Assembly: GCF_000190755.2 (NCBI RefSeq)
Contig: NZ_JH109152.1
Location: 992,001 to 1,056,000, forward strand
Reading direction: 5' to 3'
DNA length: 64,000 nucleotides
DNA from: Methylobacter tundripaludum SV96
GTDB taxonomy: Bacteria > Pseudomonadota > Gammaproteobacteria > Methylococcales > Methylomonadaceae
Both the position numbers and the translations under genes were made by a program. Every line of letters starts with the position of its first letter. Within the stretch, counting starts at the first letter, position 1. Positions 47,641 through 59,190 of the stretch are shown here, in pieces. The notes under the pieces were generated by a model. The model did no database searches, was not told the origin of the DNA, and saw only the letters and a program-made list of their open reading frames with translations.

Positions 47641-48745
47641 CTGATGTTACGCAGTCATCCCTAAATTTGGTTATTCTGTGCGAATGAAAAAAGCAGAATT
47701 AGAGTTATACACAGATTATTTGATAAGCACGTTTGGAGCGGCGACAGCCACGGGATTATCGTCGATGGTGGATGGAGATGTGAGCCATGACCGAGTGACG
47801 CGTTTTCTGTCAGAACGCGAATACACGTCTCGAGACTTATGGCGCCAGGTAAAATCGACAGTTCGCCAGATAGAGCGGGAAGATGGCGTGTTGATTTTCG
47901 ACGACACGATCCAGGAGAAGGCCTGGACGGACGAAAATGAGGTGATGTGCTGGCATTTCGATCATTGCAGCGGGCGTTCGGTACGGGGAATCAACTTGCT
48001 GAATGCCCTGTATTACAGCGGTGAGGTATCGATTCCGGTTGCGTTTGAGCTGGTGCGAAAGCCGCTGCAATTTTGCGATGTGAAAACGCGACAGGTGAAG
48101 CGGGCCAGTGAAGTCACCAAAAACGAATTGATGCGGTGCATGATAGCCACCTGCGTGAATAACGCCTTGAAATTTCGTTATGTGTTGATGGATAGCTGGT
48201 TCGCTTCCGTGGAAAACTTCGAGTTTATTGTGAAAAAGAAAAAGCATTTTATCGCTGCGCTCAAAGACAACCGTCTGGTCGCTTTAAGCGCAGCCGATAA
48301 GAAGCAAGGTCGCTTTGTACGGATCGATACCCTGGAATTATCGGATAAACAGGTCGTGCGCGGCTGGCTAAAAGGGTATGCAGATGAGGTCCTTTTAGTT
48401 CGGCAAGTCTTTACAAACAAAGACGGCAGCACGGGGTTGTTGAATCTGGTCTGCAGCGATTTGACGTGCAACGGCGACATGATCGCGACAATCTATCAAA
48501 AACGATGGAAAGTTGAAGTGTTTCATAAATCCTTGAAATCCAATGCCGCATTGGCAAAGTCGCCGACCCGCAGGGTTACCACGCAAAACAATCATGTGTT
48601 TATGGCGATTTACGCGGTATTCAAGCTGGAATGCCTGAAGTTAAAACACAAAACGAACCATTTTGCGTTGCGAGCTAAGCTCTTTATTAAAGCAACCCGT
48701 CAAGCCTATGCAGAACTTCAGATTCTGCAGGCTGCGTAACATCAG
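47641..48745 (+). mobile_element. IS4-like insertion sequence (1105 bp)
   Basis: Ends CTGATGTTACGCAG (left, 47641-47654) and its exact inverse (48732-48745). Flanked by a 7-bp target repeat TTAGTAA (47634-47640 and 48746-48752), or 8 bp if the terminal C is counted. Holds one intact transposase gene. The perfect ends and target repeat suggest a recent insertion. Confidence 0.9.
47684..48739 (+). CDS. Transposase, IS4/IS701-like DDE family
   Basis: About 351 aa from ATG 47684. DDE residues are visible: FDDT near residue 70, LMDSWFAS near 167, and the YxxRWKVEVFHKSLK block (near 276) typical of IS4-type enzymes. The stop codon lies in the right terminal repeat. The gene seems intact and probably active. 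Confidence 0.9.
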   Translation: MKKAELELYTDYLISTFGAATATGLSSMVDGDVSHDRVTRFLSEREYTSRDLWRQVKSTVRQIEREDGVLIFDDTIQEKAWTDENEVMCWHFDHCSGRSVRGINLLNALYYSGEVSIPVAFELVRKPLQFCDVKTRQVKRASEVTKNELMRCMIATCVNNALKFRYVLMDSWFASVENFEFIVKKKKHFIAALKDNRLVALSAADKKQGRFVRIDTLELSDKQVVRGWLKGYADEVLLVRQVFTNKDGSTGLLNLVCSDLTCNGDMIATIYQKRWKVEVFHKSLKSNAALAKSPTRRVTTQNNHVFMAIYAVFKLECLKLKHKTNHFALRAKLFIKATRQAYAELQILQAA

Positions 48746-49223: not shown

Positions 49224-49631
49224 TTATGTTGTTGCAGGGTAAAGCTTGATGGGTAGGTGTTGTTGATAAAAACCAAAGTCCTTGTCGCTAGTAAATATTG
49301 GGATGTTTAACCGCACCGCAACAGCACAAATCAATAAATCAATGTGCGATCCCTGAACGCCTTTTTGGCGGCATTCATTATAGAACTTGGCCGCAATAAT
49401 ATAATCTTCATCCAGAATGGGCGTGTTTTCAAAATAACTCAGTTTGGTTTTTAGCAGTTCGAATTTATTCAAATCGCTGTAGCCGGATAAAATCTCTTGT
49501 CGAATAGCACCAATAATCAACACGCGCTGGTCGGCTATGAGTGTTTCCAGACTCTTTACCTGCGATTCAAACTCCGGTTTTTTAGAACGGAGCGCGTGTG
49601 ACCAGATGCAGGTATCGACCAATACTTTCAA
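49224..49631 (-). CDS. VapC-type PIN domain toxin (second pair)
   Basis: A 135-aa PIN protein. Asp6 (VLVDTCIWSHAL), Glu46 (RQEILSGYSD), Asp98 (HIDLLICAVA) and Asp116/118 (FTSDKDFGFY) make the acidic site. It follows the antitoxin with a 4-bp overlap. Downstream, the IS-split gene is convergent. Confidence 0.92.
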   Translation of the reverse strand: MKVLVDTCIWSHALRSKKPEFESQVKSLETLIADQRVLIIGAIRQEILSGYSDLNKFELLKTKLSYFENTPILDEDYIIAAKFYNECRQKGVQGSHIDLLICAVAVRLNIPIFTSDKDFGFYQQHLPIKLYPATT

Positions 49632-53659: not shown

Positions 53660-55087
53660 TTACTTTTTGTTTTTAAGCGTAAGCGCCGCGCCATGCAGAG
53701 CTTTGGCGAGGGTAGGGTGGGCGTGTATGGTTCTGGCCAGGTCTTCGCTGCTGGCGGAGAACTCCATGGCCAGCACGGCTTCTGCAATCATTTCGGAGGC
53801 TTGCGTGCCAATGATATGAATGCCGAGCAGGGCATCGGTTTCTGCGTGTGCGATGATTTTAACCATACCCTCAGTCTGGCCCATGGCTTGGGCGCGAGCG
53901 GTGGCTTTTAACGGAAAGGTGCCGATTTTGATGGGTTCGCCCATCGCCCTTAAGGCTTGTTCGGTTTGGCCCACCCAGGCAATCTCGGGGTCGGTAAAAA
54001 CAACGCTGGGCAGGAGGTCGTAGTTGACGGGGTTGTGGAGACCGGCGATTTGTTCGGCAACGAATAATCCTTCTTCTATGCCTTTATGGGCAATCATCGG
54101 GCCGAGCAAGGTCAGGTCGCCTATCGCGTAAACGCCGGGCAGGGTGGTGCGGCAGTTTTCATCGACGTGAACATAGCCGTTTTCGTCGAGCAGTAAATTG
54201 GCTTCCGCAGCGGCCAGGTTTTCGGTATTGGGTTTTCGACCGGATGCAACAATCAGTTTATCGACGCGCAGGGCATGGGTGCCCTCACTATCCTGGTATT
54301 CTACGGTGACTTTTTTACTGCCTTTTTTGGCTGAAATAACCCGTGCGCCCAGACGCAGTTCCAGTCCTTGTTCGGTGTATATACGATAGGCCTCCCGCGC
54401 AATTTGCTGGTCGGCCAAGCCTAAAAATGATTCCTGCGCTTCCAGCAGAATGGTTTCGGCGCCGAGTCTGTTCCAGATGCCTGCTAATTCGAGGCCTATG
54501 ATGCCTGCACCGATAATGGCCAATCTCTTGGGTACCGCGTCGAGATTCAAAGCCATGGCGGTGTCAATAATAAATTCATTATCAATCGGTGCGCAGGATA
54601 AATCGACCGGGGAGGAGCCGGTGGCCAGGACAATATGCTTGGCTTCGATTATCGATACAGCGGAATGATCGGTCGGCGTGATTTCCACCCGCCGCTCATT
54701 GAGCAGCTTGGCCTCCGCCTGAATGCAGTCGATTTTGTAATGGGCGAACGAGTCGGCGATTTGTCGGCTGAGTGCGTCAATAATATTGTTTTTGCGCTGC
54801 ATCATCAGCGCAATATCCACCGAAACGGCCTCTGCCTGAATACCGTGTTCTTTCAGGTTGTGGTTGATCGATTGATAAATTTTCGCCGATTCCAGCAGGG
54901 CGATAGACGCAACGCAACCGGCGTTCAGGTATGTGCCGCCCAGACTGCTTTGGCCTTCTTCATCATGCCAGTTATCGATACAGGCGGTTTTTAAGCCGAG
55001 CTGGGCGCATCGGATGGCGCTGGAATAGCCTGCCGGTCCTGCGCCGATGACGATGACATCAAACGACTTTACTTGTTTTTTTGACAT
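53660..55087 (-). CDS. lpd: Dihydrolipoyl dehydrogenase-like protein (E3) with altered active site
   Basis: A 475-aa flavoprotein of the E3 family, third in sucA-sucB-lpd. FAD motif VIVIGAGPAGYSSA and NAD motif LAIIGAGIIGLELAG are intact. The redox disulphide region, normally GGTCLNVGCIPSKAL, reads GGTYLNAGCVASIAL: first cysteine replaced by Tyr53 (TAC codon), second kept as Cys58, and the conserved Lys by Ile62. The C-terminal HPTLxE reads HPTLAK (His457, Lys462), losing the catalytic Glu. Normal E3 thiol chemistry would be lost, while the fold is conserved. The rest of the operon looks intact. Confidence 0.9.
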   Translation of the reverse strand: MSKKQVKSFDVIVIGAGPAGYSSAIRCAQLGLKTACIDNWHDEEGQSSLGGTYLNAGCVASIALLESAKIYQSINHNLKEHGIQAEAVSVDIALMMQRKNNIIDALSRQIADSFAHYKIDCIQAEAKLLNERRVEITPTDHSAVSIIEAKHIVLATGSSPVDLSCAPIDNEFIIDTAMALNLDAVPKRLAIIGAGIIGLELAGIWNRLGAETILLEAQESFLGLADQQIAREAYRIYTEQGLELRLGARVISAKKGSKKVTVEYQDSEGTHALRVDKLIVASGRKPNTENLAAAEANLLLDENGYVHVDENCRTTLPGVYAIGDLTLLGPMIAHKGIEEGLFVAEQIAGLHNPVNYDLLPSVVFTDPEIAWVGQTEQALRAMGEPIKIGTFPLKATARAQAMGQTEGMVKIIAHAETDALLGIHIIGTQASEMIAEAVLAMEFSASSEDLARTIHAHPTLAKALHGAALTLKNKK

Positions 55088-55091
55088 GGTC

Positions 55092-56360
55092 TTATATGTT
55101 AAGCAATAGGTGGGCGGGCGCTTCCAGGCATTCTTTGATGGTGACTAGAAATTGCACGGCCTCGCGCCCGTCAACCAATCGATGATCGTACGATAAAGCC
55201 AGATACATGATCGGCCTGATAACAATCTGTCCGTTTTCAACCACGGGGCGCTCTTTGATGGCATGCATGCCCAAGATGGCGCACTGCGGTGGATTGAGTA
55301 TCGGCGTGGACAGCATCGAACCGAAAATGCCGCCGTTGGTAATGGTGAAGGTACCGCCTTTCAAATCGTCGTAAGTCAAGGTGCCGGACCGGGTTTTTGC
55401 GCCGAAATCGACGATGCTTTGTTCGATGCCGGCAAAATCGAGTTGGTCCGCATCGCGCAATACCGGCACGATCAAGCCGCGCTCGGTGCTGACCGCAATG
55501 CCTATGTCATAGTAGCCGTGATAGATAATATCGTTATCGTCGATGGAAGCATTGATGGCCGGGAAGCGCTTTAAAGCCTCGATAGACGCCTTGACAAAGA
55601 AAGACATAAAGCCCAGTTTGACATGGTGCTTTTTTTCAAAGCGTTCTTTGTACTGGTTGCGAAGATCAATCACGTTTTGCATGTTAACTTCATTAAATGT
55701 GGTCAGCATCGCCGCATTTTGCTGCGCCTGTAACAGGCGTTCGGCAACTTTGGCCCTTAGCCGGGTCATAGGGACACGCTGCTCCGGACGCAGATTTGAA
55801 ATCACCCGGCCTGTTTCCTCTTTAGGCGCAGGGTGACTGATGGCGGTAGCTGTCTCCTCCTTTGTCAAAGGGGGGCTGAGGGGAATTTCGGCCTTGGCGG
55901 TCGGAACTATCAGTTGAGCTTCCTGCAGGGTTTTTTTATGGAGGTAATCCAAAACATCGGTTTTAGTAAGACGGCCGTCTTTTCCTGAACCTTTGATAAT
56001 GGAAGGGTCCAGCGCATTTTCAGCAATCAACCGGCGTACCGACGGGCTTAGCGGGATGTCCGATTCATCCTCGTCCTCAGGTTCGGGAGCGGTCGCCGCT
56101 GTTTTTTGGCCTTCTTCCACGGCTTGCGGTTCCAGCAAAGCCAGTACTTCGCCGCCGACCACAATGGAGCCGTCTTCCTTGAGTATTTTGCCAAGGATGC
56201 CGGATTCCGGCGCAGGAACTTCAAGCACCACCTTGTCCGTTTCAAGATCAACGAGGTTTTCGTTCTTGATAACGGTATCGCCGGGTTGCTTATGCCAGGT
56301 GATCAACGTTGCATCGGAGACGGATTCGGGTAGGTTGGGAACTAGGACTTCAATGCTCAT
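55092..56360 (-). CDS. sucB: Dihydrolipoyllysine succinyltransferase (E2)
   Basis: A 422-aa E2 with N-terminal lipoyl domain (lipoyl Lys in [12 protein letters not shown] near residue 43), a peripheral binding domain ([18 protein letters not shown] ~106-140) and a C-terminal acyltransferase with the catalytic [10 protein letters not shown] (His393, Asp397). Only one lipoyl domain, like E. coli SucB. It lies 1 bp after sucA and 4 bp before lpd. Confidence 0.96.
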
Positions 56361-56361
56361 G

Positions 56362-59190
56362 TTATTTTCCTGAAAGTTTGCCGTAAAGGGCCGATTGAAC
56401 GACCGCTTTTTGTTGTTCTATATGGACGCGGAAATTGCCGACAGCGGGCGCCGCCGATGCCTCTCGACCGGCATAAGTCATGCTGATTTTGGCGCCGAGA
56501 TTATCGGTAAAGTGATGCCGGGATTGATACCAGGCGCCTTGATTTTGGGGCTCTTCCTGACACCAGATGAACTCTTTAAGCTGCGGGTATTTGCCGACTT
56601 CCGCTTTGAATAACTCATCGGGAAAAGGGTAGAGCTGTTCTATGCGGGCAATGGCGACATGCTTAAGGTCGTCCTGGCGCCGTGTTTCCAGCAGGTCGTA
56701 ATAGACTTTGCCTGCGCACATGACCAGGCGAGTTACCTTTTTGGGATTGATGTCGTCCTGCTCGCCGATGACCGGCAGGAATTGACCGTTCGTCAAATCT
56801 TCCAGTGTGGAGACCGCAAGCTTGTGACGCAGCAAACTCTTGGGGCTCATAATTATTAAGGGTTTCCGATACGGTCGCAGCATCTGGCGACGCAGCAAAT
56901 GAAATATTTGCGCGGGCGTAGTCGGGCTGCAAACCTGCATGTTATGTTCGGCACACAGTTGCAGATAGCGTTCCAGCCTAGCCGAGGAATGTTCCGGTCC
57001 CTGGCCTTCAAAGCCGTGCGGAAGCAGCATCACCAGATTGCACATGCGGCCCCATTTGGTTTCGCCGGAACTGATAAACTGGTCGATAACCACTTGCGCG
57101 CCATTGGCAAAATCGCCGAACTGCGCTTCCCAAATAACCAGGGTATTCGGCATCGTGGTGCTGTAGCCGTATTCGAAACCCAACACGCCCGCTTCGGAAA
57201 GCAGCGAGTCGAAAATCTGCGCATTGCCTTGATCTTTGTCCAGGTGTTTAAGCGGCGTGTAGGTTTTATTATGCAGTTGATTATGCAAAACAGCATGCCG
57301 ATGCACAAAAGTGCCGCGACCGACATCCTGCCCGGTCAGACGAACGTGGTATTTTTCCGTTAACAGCGTCGCATAGGCCATGTTTTCGGCAAAACCCCAG
57401 TCCAGCGGCATGGCTCCCGCCGCCATTTTACGGCGGTTGTCCATGACTTTGGCGACTCTGGGGTGCATTTCAAAACCGGTCGGCAAGCGCTGCATCCTGT
57501 CGTTACAAAAGCGCAGGCGATCCATGGAAACGGCTGTATTACAAGCTGATTTCCAGTCGCTGCCCAGGAATTTATTCCATTGGTTGGTGTAAGGGTAGGG
57601 GCCGTCGGTCAGGACGGGCCGGGACACCACTTCACCGGCTTCGAGCAGTTTTTGGTAATTTTGCTCCAACTCGGTGGCTTGTTCATGGGTGATGAGCCCG
57701 GTTTTGATGAGTTTTTCGGCGTAAAGCTTCCGCGTCGTCTTGAGCTTGCGGATTTTTTTATACATCAAGGGCTGGGTGGTTGAAGGCTCATCGGCTTCAT
57801 TATGCCCAAGGCGGCGATAGCAAATAAGATCGATGACCACATCTTTATTAAAGGTCATCCGGTAGTCCATTGCCAATTGGGTTACAAAGATAACGGCGTC
57901 GGGATCATCGCCGTTGACGTGAAAAACCGGCGCCTGGATCATGCTGGCTACATCGGTGCAATAAAGCGTGGAGCGCGCATCCAGCGGGTTGCTGGTAGTA
58001 AAGCCGATTTGATTGTTGATGACGATATGCACGGTTCCGCCGGTGGAAAAAGCGCGGGTTTGCGACATGTTCAGGGTTTCCATGATGATGCCTTGCCCGG
58101 AAAAGGCCGCATCGCCGTGGATTAAAATGGGAATTACCGTATTGCTGCCGTTTATTCCCGCCCTGTCCTGACGGGCCTTGACCGAGCCTTCGACCACCGG
58201 GTTGATGATCTCCAAATGCGATGGGTTGAATGCCAGCGTTATATGAACCGGGCGGCCGCCGGGCGTACTGATGTCCGATGAAAAGCCCATGTGATATTTT
58301 ACGTCGCCGGTACTGACACCCGGAGAAAGCGGCGAAGTGCCGGCAAATTCGTTAAACAGGCTCGCAGGGCTTTTGCCCAGGATGTTGACCAGTACATTCA
58401 AGCGGCCTCGGTGGGCCATACCGATCACAATCTCATTAACGCCTTTTTCGCCAAACCCTTGCGTTAATTCATCCAGAATCGGAATCAGCGATTCGCCGCC
58501 TTCCAGAGAAAAACGCTTTTGACCGACAAATCGGTTATGCAAATGGCTTTCTATGCCTTCAGCGGCGGTCAATAGCTTAAGCGTCCAGAGTTTTTTTTCA
58601 GGCTCCAGCTCCAAGTTGGCTTTAGCGCTTTCCAGACGGTTTATTATCCAGCGCCTGATTTGGGTGTCGACGATGTGCATGTATTCAGAGCCGATGCTGC
58701 CGCAGTAAATCTCTTGCAGATTGGCAATGATGTCGCGTAAAGGCAGCCGGTCAATACCGTAAAGCGCGCCCGTGTCGAATAAGGTGTCCATATCAGGCTC
58801 GGAGAGACCGTAATAAGAGGGGTCCATATCGGGAGGCGGCGGCAAGGTTCTGCCCAGCGGGTTGTTGGCGGCAATCTGATGGCCGCGAACCCGGTAATGA
58901 TTAATAAGGCGGGCAACAGCCGATTGTTTTTTGACGCTTTCTTCGGTAAAGCCTTGTAATTTCGCCAATCGGCCTTGGGATTTAAGCGCAAGCTGCGCAA
59001 AGCGTTCTACGACAGGGCTATGAGGCGTCTCATAATCAGCGCCGTTGTGAATTTCGCTGAATTTCTTTTGCCAGCTGGGTTCAACCGAGTCGGGGTCTTC
59101 CAGGAATCGTTCATACAAGTTCTCAACAAAGCCGGCGTTGCTGCCATAGAGGGAGGAAGAATCTTGAAAAAGTTTAAGCAGCTTACTCAT
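56362..59190 (-). CDS. sucA: 2-oxoglutarate dehydrogenase E1
   Basis: A 942-aa thiamine diphosphate enzyme (E. coli 933 aa). Seen: the N-terminal [44 protein letters not shown] (TPP binding), [11 protein letters not shown] and the late [20 protein letters not shown]. It decarboxylates 2-oxoglutarate and hands the succinyl group to SucB. Its presence means the TCA cycle could be closed in this organism, if E3 works. Divergent from the DUF2914 gene. Confidence 0.97.

Follow-up and report, generated by a model that had tools for sequence, protein, structure and literature searches.

The sucA-sucB-E3 locus

The window, meaning the whole stretch of 64,000 nucleotides of Methylobacter tundripaludum SV96 DNA that was analysed, carries three genes on one strand in the order sucA-sucB-E3. 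The E3 gene is the third of these and lies 4 bp downstream of sucB. The features are as follows.

56362..59190, minus strand: sucA/odhA, E1 of 2-oxoglutarate dehydrogenase (NCBIfam, Pfam)
55092..56360, minus strand: sucB/odhB, E2 dihydrolipoyl succinyltransferase, with lipoyl, E3-binding and catalytic domains (PF00364, PF02817, PF00198)
53660..55087, minus strand: disulphide-free E3-like flavoprotein of the OdhL/LpdG type, 475 aa, ATG start (open reading frame list, TIGR01350, Pyr_redox_2 and Pyr_redox_dim)
54929..54931, minus strand: codon TAC of Tyr53, at the position of the first redox Cys
54914..54916, minus strand: codon TGC of Cys58, at the position of the second redox Cys, retained in the window
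54902..54904, minus strand: codon ATC of Ile62, which replaces the Lys of CIPSK
53717..53719, minus strand: His457 of the His-Glu dyad, retained in the window
53702..53704, minus strand: Lys462, which replaces the Glu of the dyad

Both sucA and sucB exceed their own NCBIfam cut-offs. The product of the third gene scores 455.7 bits with TIGR01350, the NCBIfam model for dihydrolipoyl dehydrogenase (cut-off 408.8), and it possesses the FAD and NAD binding motifs of that enzyme. Three other hallmarks of dihydrolipoyl dehydrogenase are missing, namely the CxxxxC motif, the Lys of CIPSK and the His-Glu dyad (HPTLSE). The open reading frame from 55087 to 53660 reads GGTYLNAGCVASIAL, and the active site is LGGTYLNAGCVASIALLE, with YLNAGC at the position of CxxxxC. 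The C-terminal motif is HPTLAK, in which the His is present and Lys stands in place of Glu. Tyr53, Cys58, Ile62 and HPTLAK had all been reported in an earlier sequence-only reading, and all were found again when the minus-strand frame was re-read. Elsewhere in the window, inspection by eye picked out reading frames like those of an IS4-type transposase (47678-48739) and a PIN-domain protein of the VapC type (49224-49631).

Active-site residues in related proteins

Homologues were drawn from 58 named loci, of which 55 were from Methylococcales and three from Prevotella (distant, and left uncounted), and from searches of 201 family genomes and 201 order genomes. The two genome sets overlap each other and the named loci overlap both, so these samples are not independent. 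Altogether, 243 loci yielded 199 distinct proteins and 193 full-length aligned rows, the window protein among them. Rows possessing both redox cysteines were classed as intact (42), and those without both together as variant (151). Seven of the distinct proteins were left out, five as fragments (L057, L059, L061, L065, L068) and two for internal stops (L182, L258); L057, L059 and L182 read as variant, and the other three fragments stop short of the active site. Also left out were fragmentary matches in seven genomes (G064, G113, G157, G176, G182, G188 and G194), a second copy found in G180, and unlisted matches.

All 42 intact rows have Cys, Cys, Lys, His and Glu at the five active-site positions. 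By genome, they comprise 12 of 12 in family f7, two of two in f8, and 28 of 28 other members of the class. All 151 variants belong to the Methylococcales. Every readable genome of the window's family (f1) is variant, 139 of 139, representing 25 of 25 genera, and the remaining variant genomes come from f2 (one), f5 (one) and f6 (two). The sequence-only reading had proposed that conserved loss across genera would indicate a real change, and the absence of the first Cys from all 25 family genera read bears this out.

At the position of the first Cys, none of the 151 variants has Cys; the residues found are Tyr (77), His (42), Phe (28), Ser (2), Val (1) and Asn (1). The Lys of CIPSK is replaced by a hydrophobic residue in 149 (Met 60, Ile 48, Leu 24, Val 16, Phe 1), and the two that retain Lys are both from f6. 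The second Cys and the dyad are lost in some lineages only. Cys remains at the second position in 113 variants and is replaced in 38 (Ser 18, Gly 15, Asp 2, Asn 2, Thr 1), while the dyad His is present in 114 (otherwise Arg 23, Tyr 9, Phe 2, Ser 2, Asn 1) and the dyad Glu in 119 (otherwise Lys 24, Asp 5, Ser 2, Arg 1). In genus g11, to which strains 20Z (Methylomicrobium alcaliphilum) and 5GB1 (M. buryatense) may belong, the five fetched genomes all read Tyr, Cys, Met, His and Glu. The change of Glu to Lys is separate from the loss of the first Cys and narrower, being found in 18 of the 19 fetched genomes of the window's genus and in one f5 genome. Thus, the earlier claim that the catalytic Glu is absent stands for the window protein and does not extend to the variants in general.

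Other positions distinguish the two classes as well. Next to G323-D324, 147 of the 151 variants carry one additional residue (position 326) that no intact row has. Intact E3s agree to 95% or more at 156 window positions, a few of them gaps in those rows. At 97 of the 156, no fewer than 90% of the variants have the same residue, and the changed positions include the disulphide cluster (52-54, 58-62 and 68) and 103-113.

No variant was seen outside the Methylococcales among the best matches read in the phylum and class searches. When 397 phylum genomes were searched with a profile built from variants only, each of the 29 top-scoring loci read GGTCLNVGCIPSK. Both cysteines and CIPSK are likewise present at every one of the 29 loci from the class search, including L258 with its internal stop. 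These two sets consist of best matches only and overlap in part.

Origin of the variant and selection upon it

In a FastTree phylogeny of all rows, the 149 variants from f1, f2 and f5 form one clade with a support of 1.0, nested within the intact E3s, with the two f6 rows placed basally, outside this clade. A second tree was built from a 75-row subset with a mixture model after removal of the active-site columns. Here all 47 variants, including the f6 pair, lie on one side of a branch with moderate support (SH-aLRT 86), beside the intact f7/f8 group, and the branch of the f6 pair has a length of 1.49. Because the variants cluster in both trees, a single loss accounts for nearly all cases, with f6 possibly representing a second. 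The first Cys was lost already in an ancestor of the family. The two f6 proteins (L130 and L131, from G216 and G228) are distant and E3-like, with Ser at the first Cys position and the Lys retained; no sucA or sucB match was present in the fetched stretch, and their loss may have been independent.

The variants have kept their cofactor motifs. The glycines of the NAD GxGxxG motif, G323-D324, H334 and K335 are present in 151 of 151, and the FAD glycines at 15, 17 and 20 in 150, 150 and 148, which agrees with the earlier statement that both motifs remain. Some cofactor residues do vary, Gly157 being present in 136 and replaced in 15, and position 216 having Glu in 127 and Asp in 24. Among the 149 clade members, site 53 has changed at least 10 times yet holds Tyr, His or Phe in 147, and site 62 has changed at least 23 times yet holds Met, Ile, Leu, Val or Phe in all 149. 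Such frequent change within narrow residue sets suggests that the two sites form a new constrained pocket rather than decaying freely.

The median dN/dS of the Methylobacter variant E3 is 0.103 (166 pairs), compared with 0.078 for sucB (151 pairs) and 0.053 for sucA (150 pairs), and that of all variants is 0.104 (355 pairs). Pseudogene status was rejected for the window gene and most of its relatives on the basis of dN/dS and open frames. Nevertheless, constraint on the variant E3 is partly relaxed, since its dN/dS is higher than that of the intact f7/f8 E3s (0.034, from two pairs only) and its mean root-to-tip length is 2.63 vs 2.10 for the intact rows.

The variant E3 is also dispensable in some lineages, because 43 of the 137 f1 genomes in the order search lack the gene and two further copies are broken. 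Those 43 genomes (30 from g12, nine from g14, three from g21 and one from g9) reach about 1e-82 at best, with PDH-type E3s as their only matches; 93 of the 137 have the gene, and G008 has a broken copy. In G160 the copy has an internal stop and still reads as variant, and in G008 the gene is spread over three reading frames. The latter (L278 5059-6461, genus g9) follows sucAB, and either decay or an assembly error may have produced it.

Which E3 serves the complex

Wherever a variant locus contains an E2 match (188 of 188), the variant gene comes immediately after sucB, in the same orientation and no more than 426 nt away; 12 of 200 loci have no E2 in the fetched stretch, some of these stretches being ended by contig ends. 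The E2 partner retains its E3-binding domain, with PF02817 detected in the window E2 and the matching motif in 127 of 128 f1 E2s. Comparison of this domain (PSBD) among the E2s did not separate the competing readings.

The genome of the window contains nine matches, including the window gene. A search for a second lpd with CxxxxC had been proposed in the sequence-only reading, and it returned two other E3s, both with an intact CLNVGCIPSK and 34% identity to the window protein. One belongs to an aceE-aceF-lpd cluster (C1:664 kb), and the other stands alone (C3:123 kb). The stand-alone E3 (L011 8379-9800) has its closest relatives, at 93-95% identity, in eight further genomes of the same genus, and some genomes of other f1 genera encode relatives with 76-86% identity to it. 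It was rejected as the general cause of a takeover of the lipoamide reaction, since the majority of f1 genomes gave just one PDH-type match.

Across the order, a PDH-type E3 match was found in 198 of 201 genomes (E up to 1e-130), and a sucA match likewise in 198 of 201. The PDH-type E3s fetched from 20 different genomes, 14 of them from f1, all possess CLNVGCIPSK. Among 20 loci around sucA, 12 have sucAB without an adjoining E3 match in the fetched stretch (six from g12, four from f4 and two from g16), and the two g16 genomes encode a variant E3 elsewhere. In seven cases (L265-L269 from five g14 genomes, and L274 and L275, in genomes G204 and G201) sucA occurs without sucB in the fetched stretch, and sucB is found elsewhere in each genome. 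In bacteria with a single lpd, one shared E3 serves the different complexes. Given that the PDH-type E3 is nearly universal in the order and intact wherever fetched, and that sucAB lacks an adjoining E3 in some lineages, the simplest inference is that a shared PDH-type E3 also serves 2-oxoglutarate dehydrogenase here. No separate ferredoxin-dependent enzyme oxidising 2-oxoglutarate was seen in the genome of the window with the POR_N model. The one match to this model lies within a 1215-residue open frame, which resembles a pyruvate:flavodoxin oxidoreductase.

Function of the altered E3

Based on these observations, the third gene of the operon would be a former dihydrolipoyl dehydrogenase that has become a disulphide-free FAD/NAD(H) protein, with lipoamide oxidation moved to a shared E3. 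We assign this reading a probability of roughly 0.68. An ancestral E3 dedicated to 2-oxoglutarate dehydrogenase would have lost its redox disulphide and, because that disulphide is gone, the altered protein would no longer oxidise dihydrolipoyl-E2, which the PDH-type E3 would re-oxidise instead. The disulphide-free protein would still bind FAD and NAD(H), and electrons could then pass only from the flavin to an acceptor, in diaphorase or quinone-type chemistry like that measured for yeast Irc15p. It may work as a subunit that responds to NADH or has a structural part, either on the complex or next to it, and it might occupy E3-binding domains of the E2. This role is argued only from gene order, which makes docking on E2 plausible, and from the E3-binding domain. 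The sequence-only reading had posed a dead E3 replaced by a second one against a new role in electron transfer; these are not exclusive, and the sequences favour both together, with a second E3 serving the complex and the window protein under purifying selection with its cofactor motifs. The window protein therefore probably has a different job, hidden by its annotation. A more specific proposal, offered tentatively, is that the 2-oxoglutarate dehydrogenase complex of type I methanotrophs has a new subunit peculiar to this lineage, a disulphide-free E3 docked on E2. This subunit would either transfer electrons between NAD(H) and an acceptor other than a thiol (a quinone or another carrier) or sense NADH, and flux through the TCA cycle would be set or redirected as a result.

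Other explanations can be weighed against the same evidence. A sequencing error or a recent point mutation in one strain might be supposed because TAC is one base from a Cys codon, but this candidate was rejected, and its probability is negligible, as no fetched family copy covering site 53 has the first Cys. The protein is also very unlikely to be a redox enzyme working with Cys58 alone, in the manner of NADH peroxidase or CoA-disulphide reductase. Although Cys58 is present in 113 of the 151 variants, Ser, Gly, Asp, Asn or Thr takes its place in the rest, with at least 14 changes at this site on the tree, and the score against the NCBIfam model for CoA-disulphide reductase is 84.9, far below the cut-off of 578.8.

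A relic seems improbable, though less so. After takeover by the shared E3, the protein would have persisted as an inert folded dimer, perhaps as filler on E2, with no redox role. In several lineages the second Cys, the His and the Glu have eroded, some f1 genomes are without the gene, the copies in G160 and G008 are broken, and the root-to-tip length is longer than in intact relatives, all of which would be expected of such a protein. These points must be set against its low dN/dS, which stays at 0.073 in the lineage whose catalytic His was replaced (six pairs only), its invariant NAD motif, the narrow replacement sets at sites 53 and 62, and its maintenance in 25 genera. A regulatory plug is a possibility of somewhat greater, though still limited, weight, and it overlaps with the preferred reading. 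Here an E3 unreactive towards lipoamide would compete for the E3-binding domain of E2 and throttle 2-oxoglutarate dehydrogenase. The retained E3-binding domain and the linkage to sucB are consistent with this, as is the enzyme table for Methylomicrobium alcaliphilum 20ZR in the available part of its source, where pyruvate dehydrogenase (PDH) was measured and 2-oxoglutarate dehydrogenase is listed as 'N.D.' (PMC5802761). However, that entry may mean not determined, a working E3 needs the same domain, so that its retention does not discriminate, and a plug would not require conserved NAD chemistry.

Implications for the TCA cycle of type I methanotrophs

The disulphide-free, non-lipoamide reading touches on a long debate. 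Type I methanotrophs possess the genes of 2-oxoglutarate dehydrogenase, yet according to a 2015 paper its activity had never been demonstrated (PMC5023229). The 2018 table for 20ZR gives pyruvate dehydrogenase values of 120 on methane and 290 on methanol, and 'N.D.', either not detected or not determined, for NAD-linked 2-oxoglutarate dehydrogenase (PMC5802761, in part). For M. buryatense, 13C evidence as cited in excerpts of PMC6373157 and PMC10602362, and reported in part by PMC6456754, points to an oxidative TCA cycle on methane with little contribution on methanol, which argues for a working route from 2-oxoglutarate onward, although bypass routes are also named in PMC5802761 and PMC6373157. 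The link between the variant E3 and this debate is a testable connection, short of proof.

The loss is a real and old change in a textbook enzyme complex, found in every family copy read. Among the matches listed in a literature search of titles and abstract openings, no report was found of this loss in methanotrophs, nor of disulphide loss in an E3 whose gene lies within an operon for 2-oxoglutarate dehydrogenase. An operonic E3 predicted from its residues to be incapable of the lipoamide reaction makes the long-standing TCA question testable, in terms of which E3 serves the complex and what the altered one does. It is also an annotation trap. Because the curated model TIGR01350 names the variant dihydrolipoyl dehydrogenase above its cut-off, metabolic models may include an activity for which the sequence gives no support.

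Comparison with known systems

The window protein resembles E3s of the OdhL/LpdG type in its length, its FAD and NAD motifs, its place in the operon after sucAB and its TIGR01350 score above the cut-off. It differs from them in lacking the CxxxxC disulphide, the CIPSK Lys and the dyad Glu, and in the extra residue at 326. The closest solved structures by sequence, 5u8u and 1lpf, are of this type. Among relatives with altered cysteines, the window protein scores 303.5 bits against the model for soluble pyridine nucleotide transhydrogenase (STH; NF003585, cut-off 465) and 249.8 against that for NAD(P)H-quinone dehydrogenase (NF005883, cut-off 479), below the cut-off in both cases. The latter model presumably covers LpdA. 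As described in the available text of PMC6296175, STH is an E3 relative without at least one redox Cys, and the LpdA quinone reductase of Mycobacterium tuberculosis is one without one Cys and the dyad.

A further likeness is to Irc15p of Saccharomyces cerevisiae, which is a paralogue of a working E3 and has its redox cysteines replaced by Tyr and Ala. It binds FAD, its flavin is reduced by NADH, and it has no lipoamide activity but reduces dyes and the quinone menadione, as stated in the same partial source (PMC6296175). The chemistry proposed for the variant thus has precedents in Irc15p and LpdA, as far as that text describes them. Like the window protein, Irc15p lacks the Cys pair and has Tyr at the position of the first Cys. 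In contrast, it is eukaryotic and microtubule-associated, with both cysteines lost and the His-Glu dyad retained. Judged by the combination of two replaced cysteines and an intact E3 elsewhere, the first Cys is gone in all 151 variants and the second in 38, and the window protein keeps the second while its genome encodes two intact E3s.
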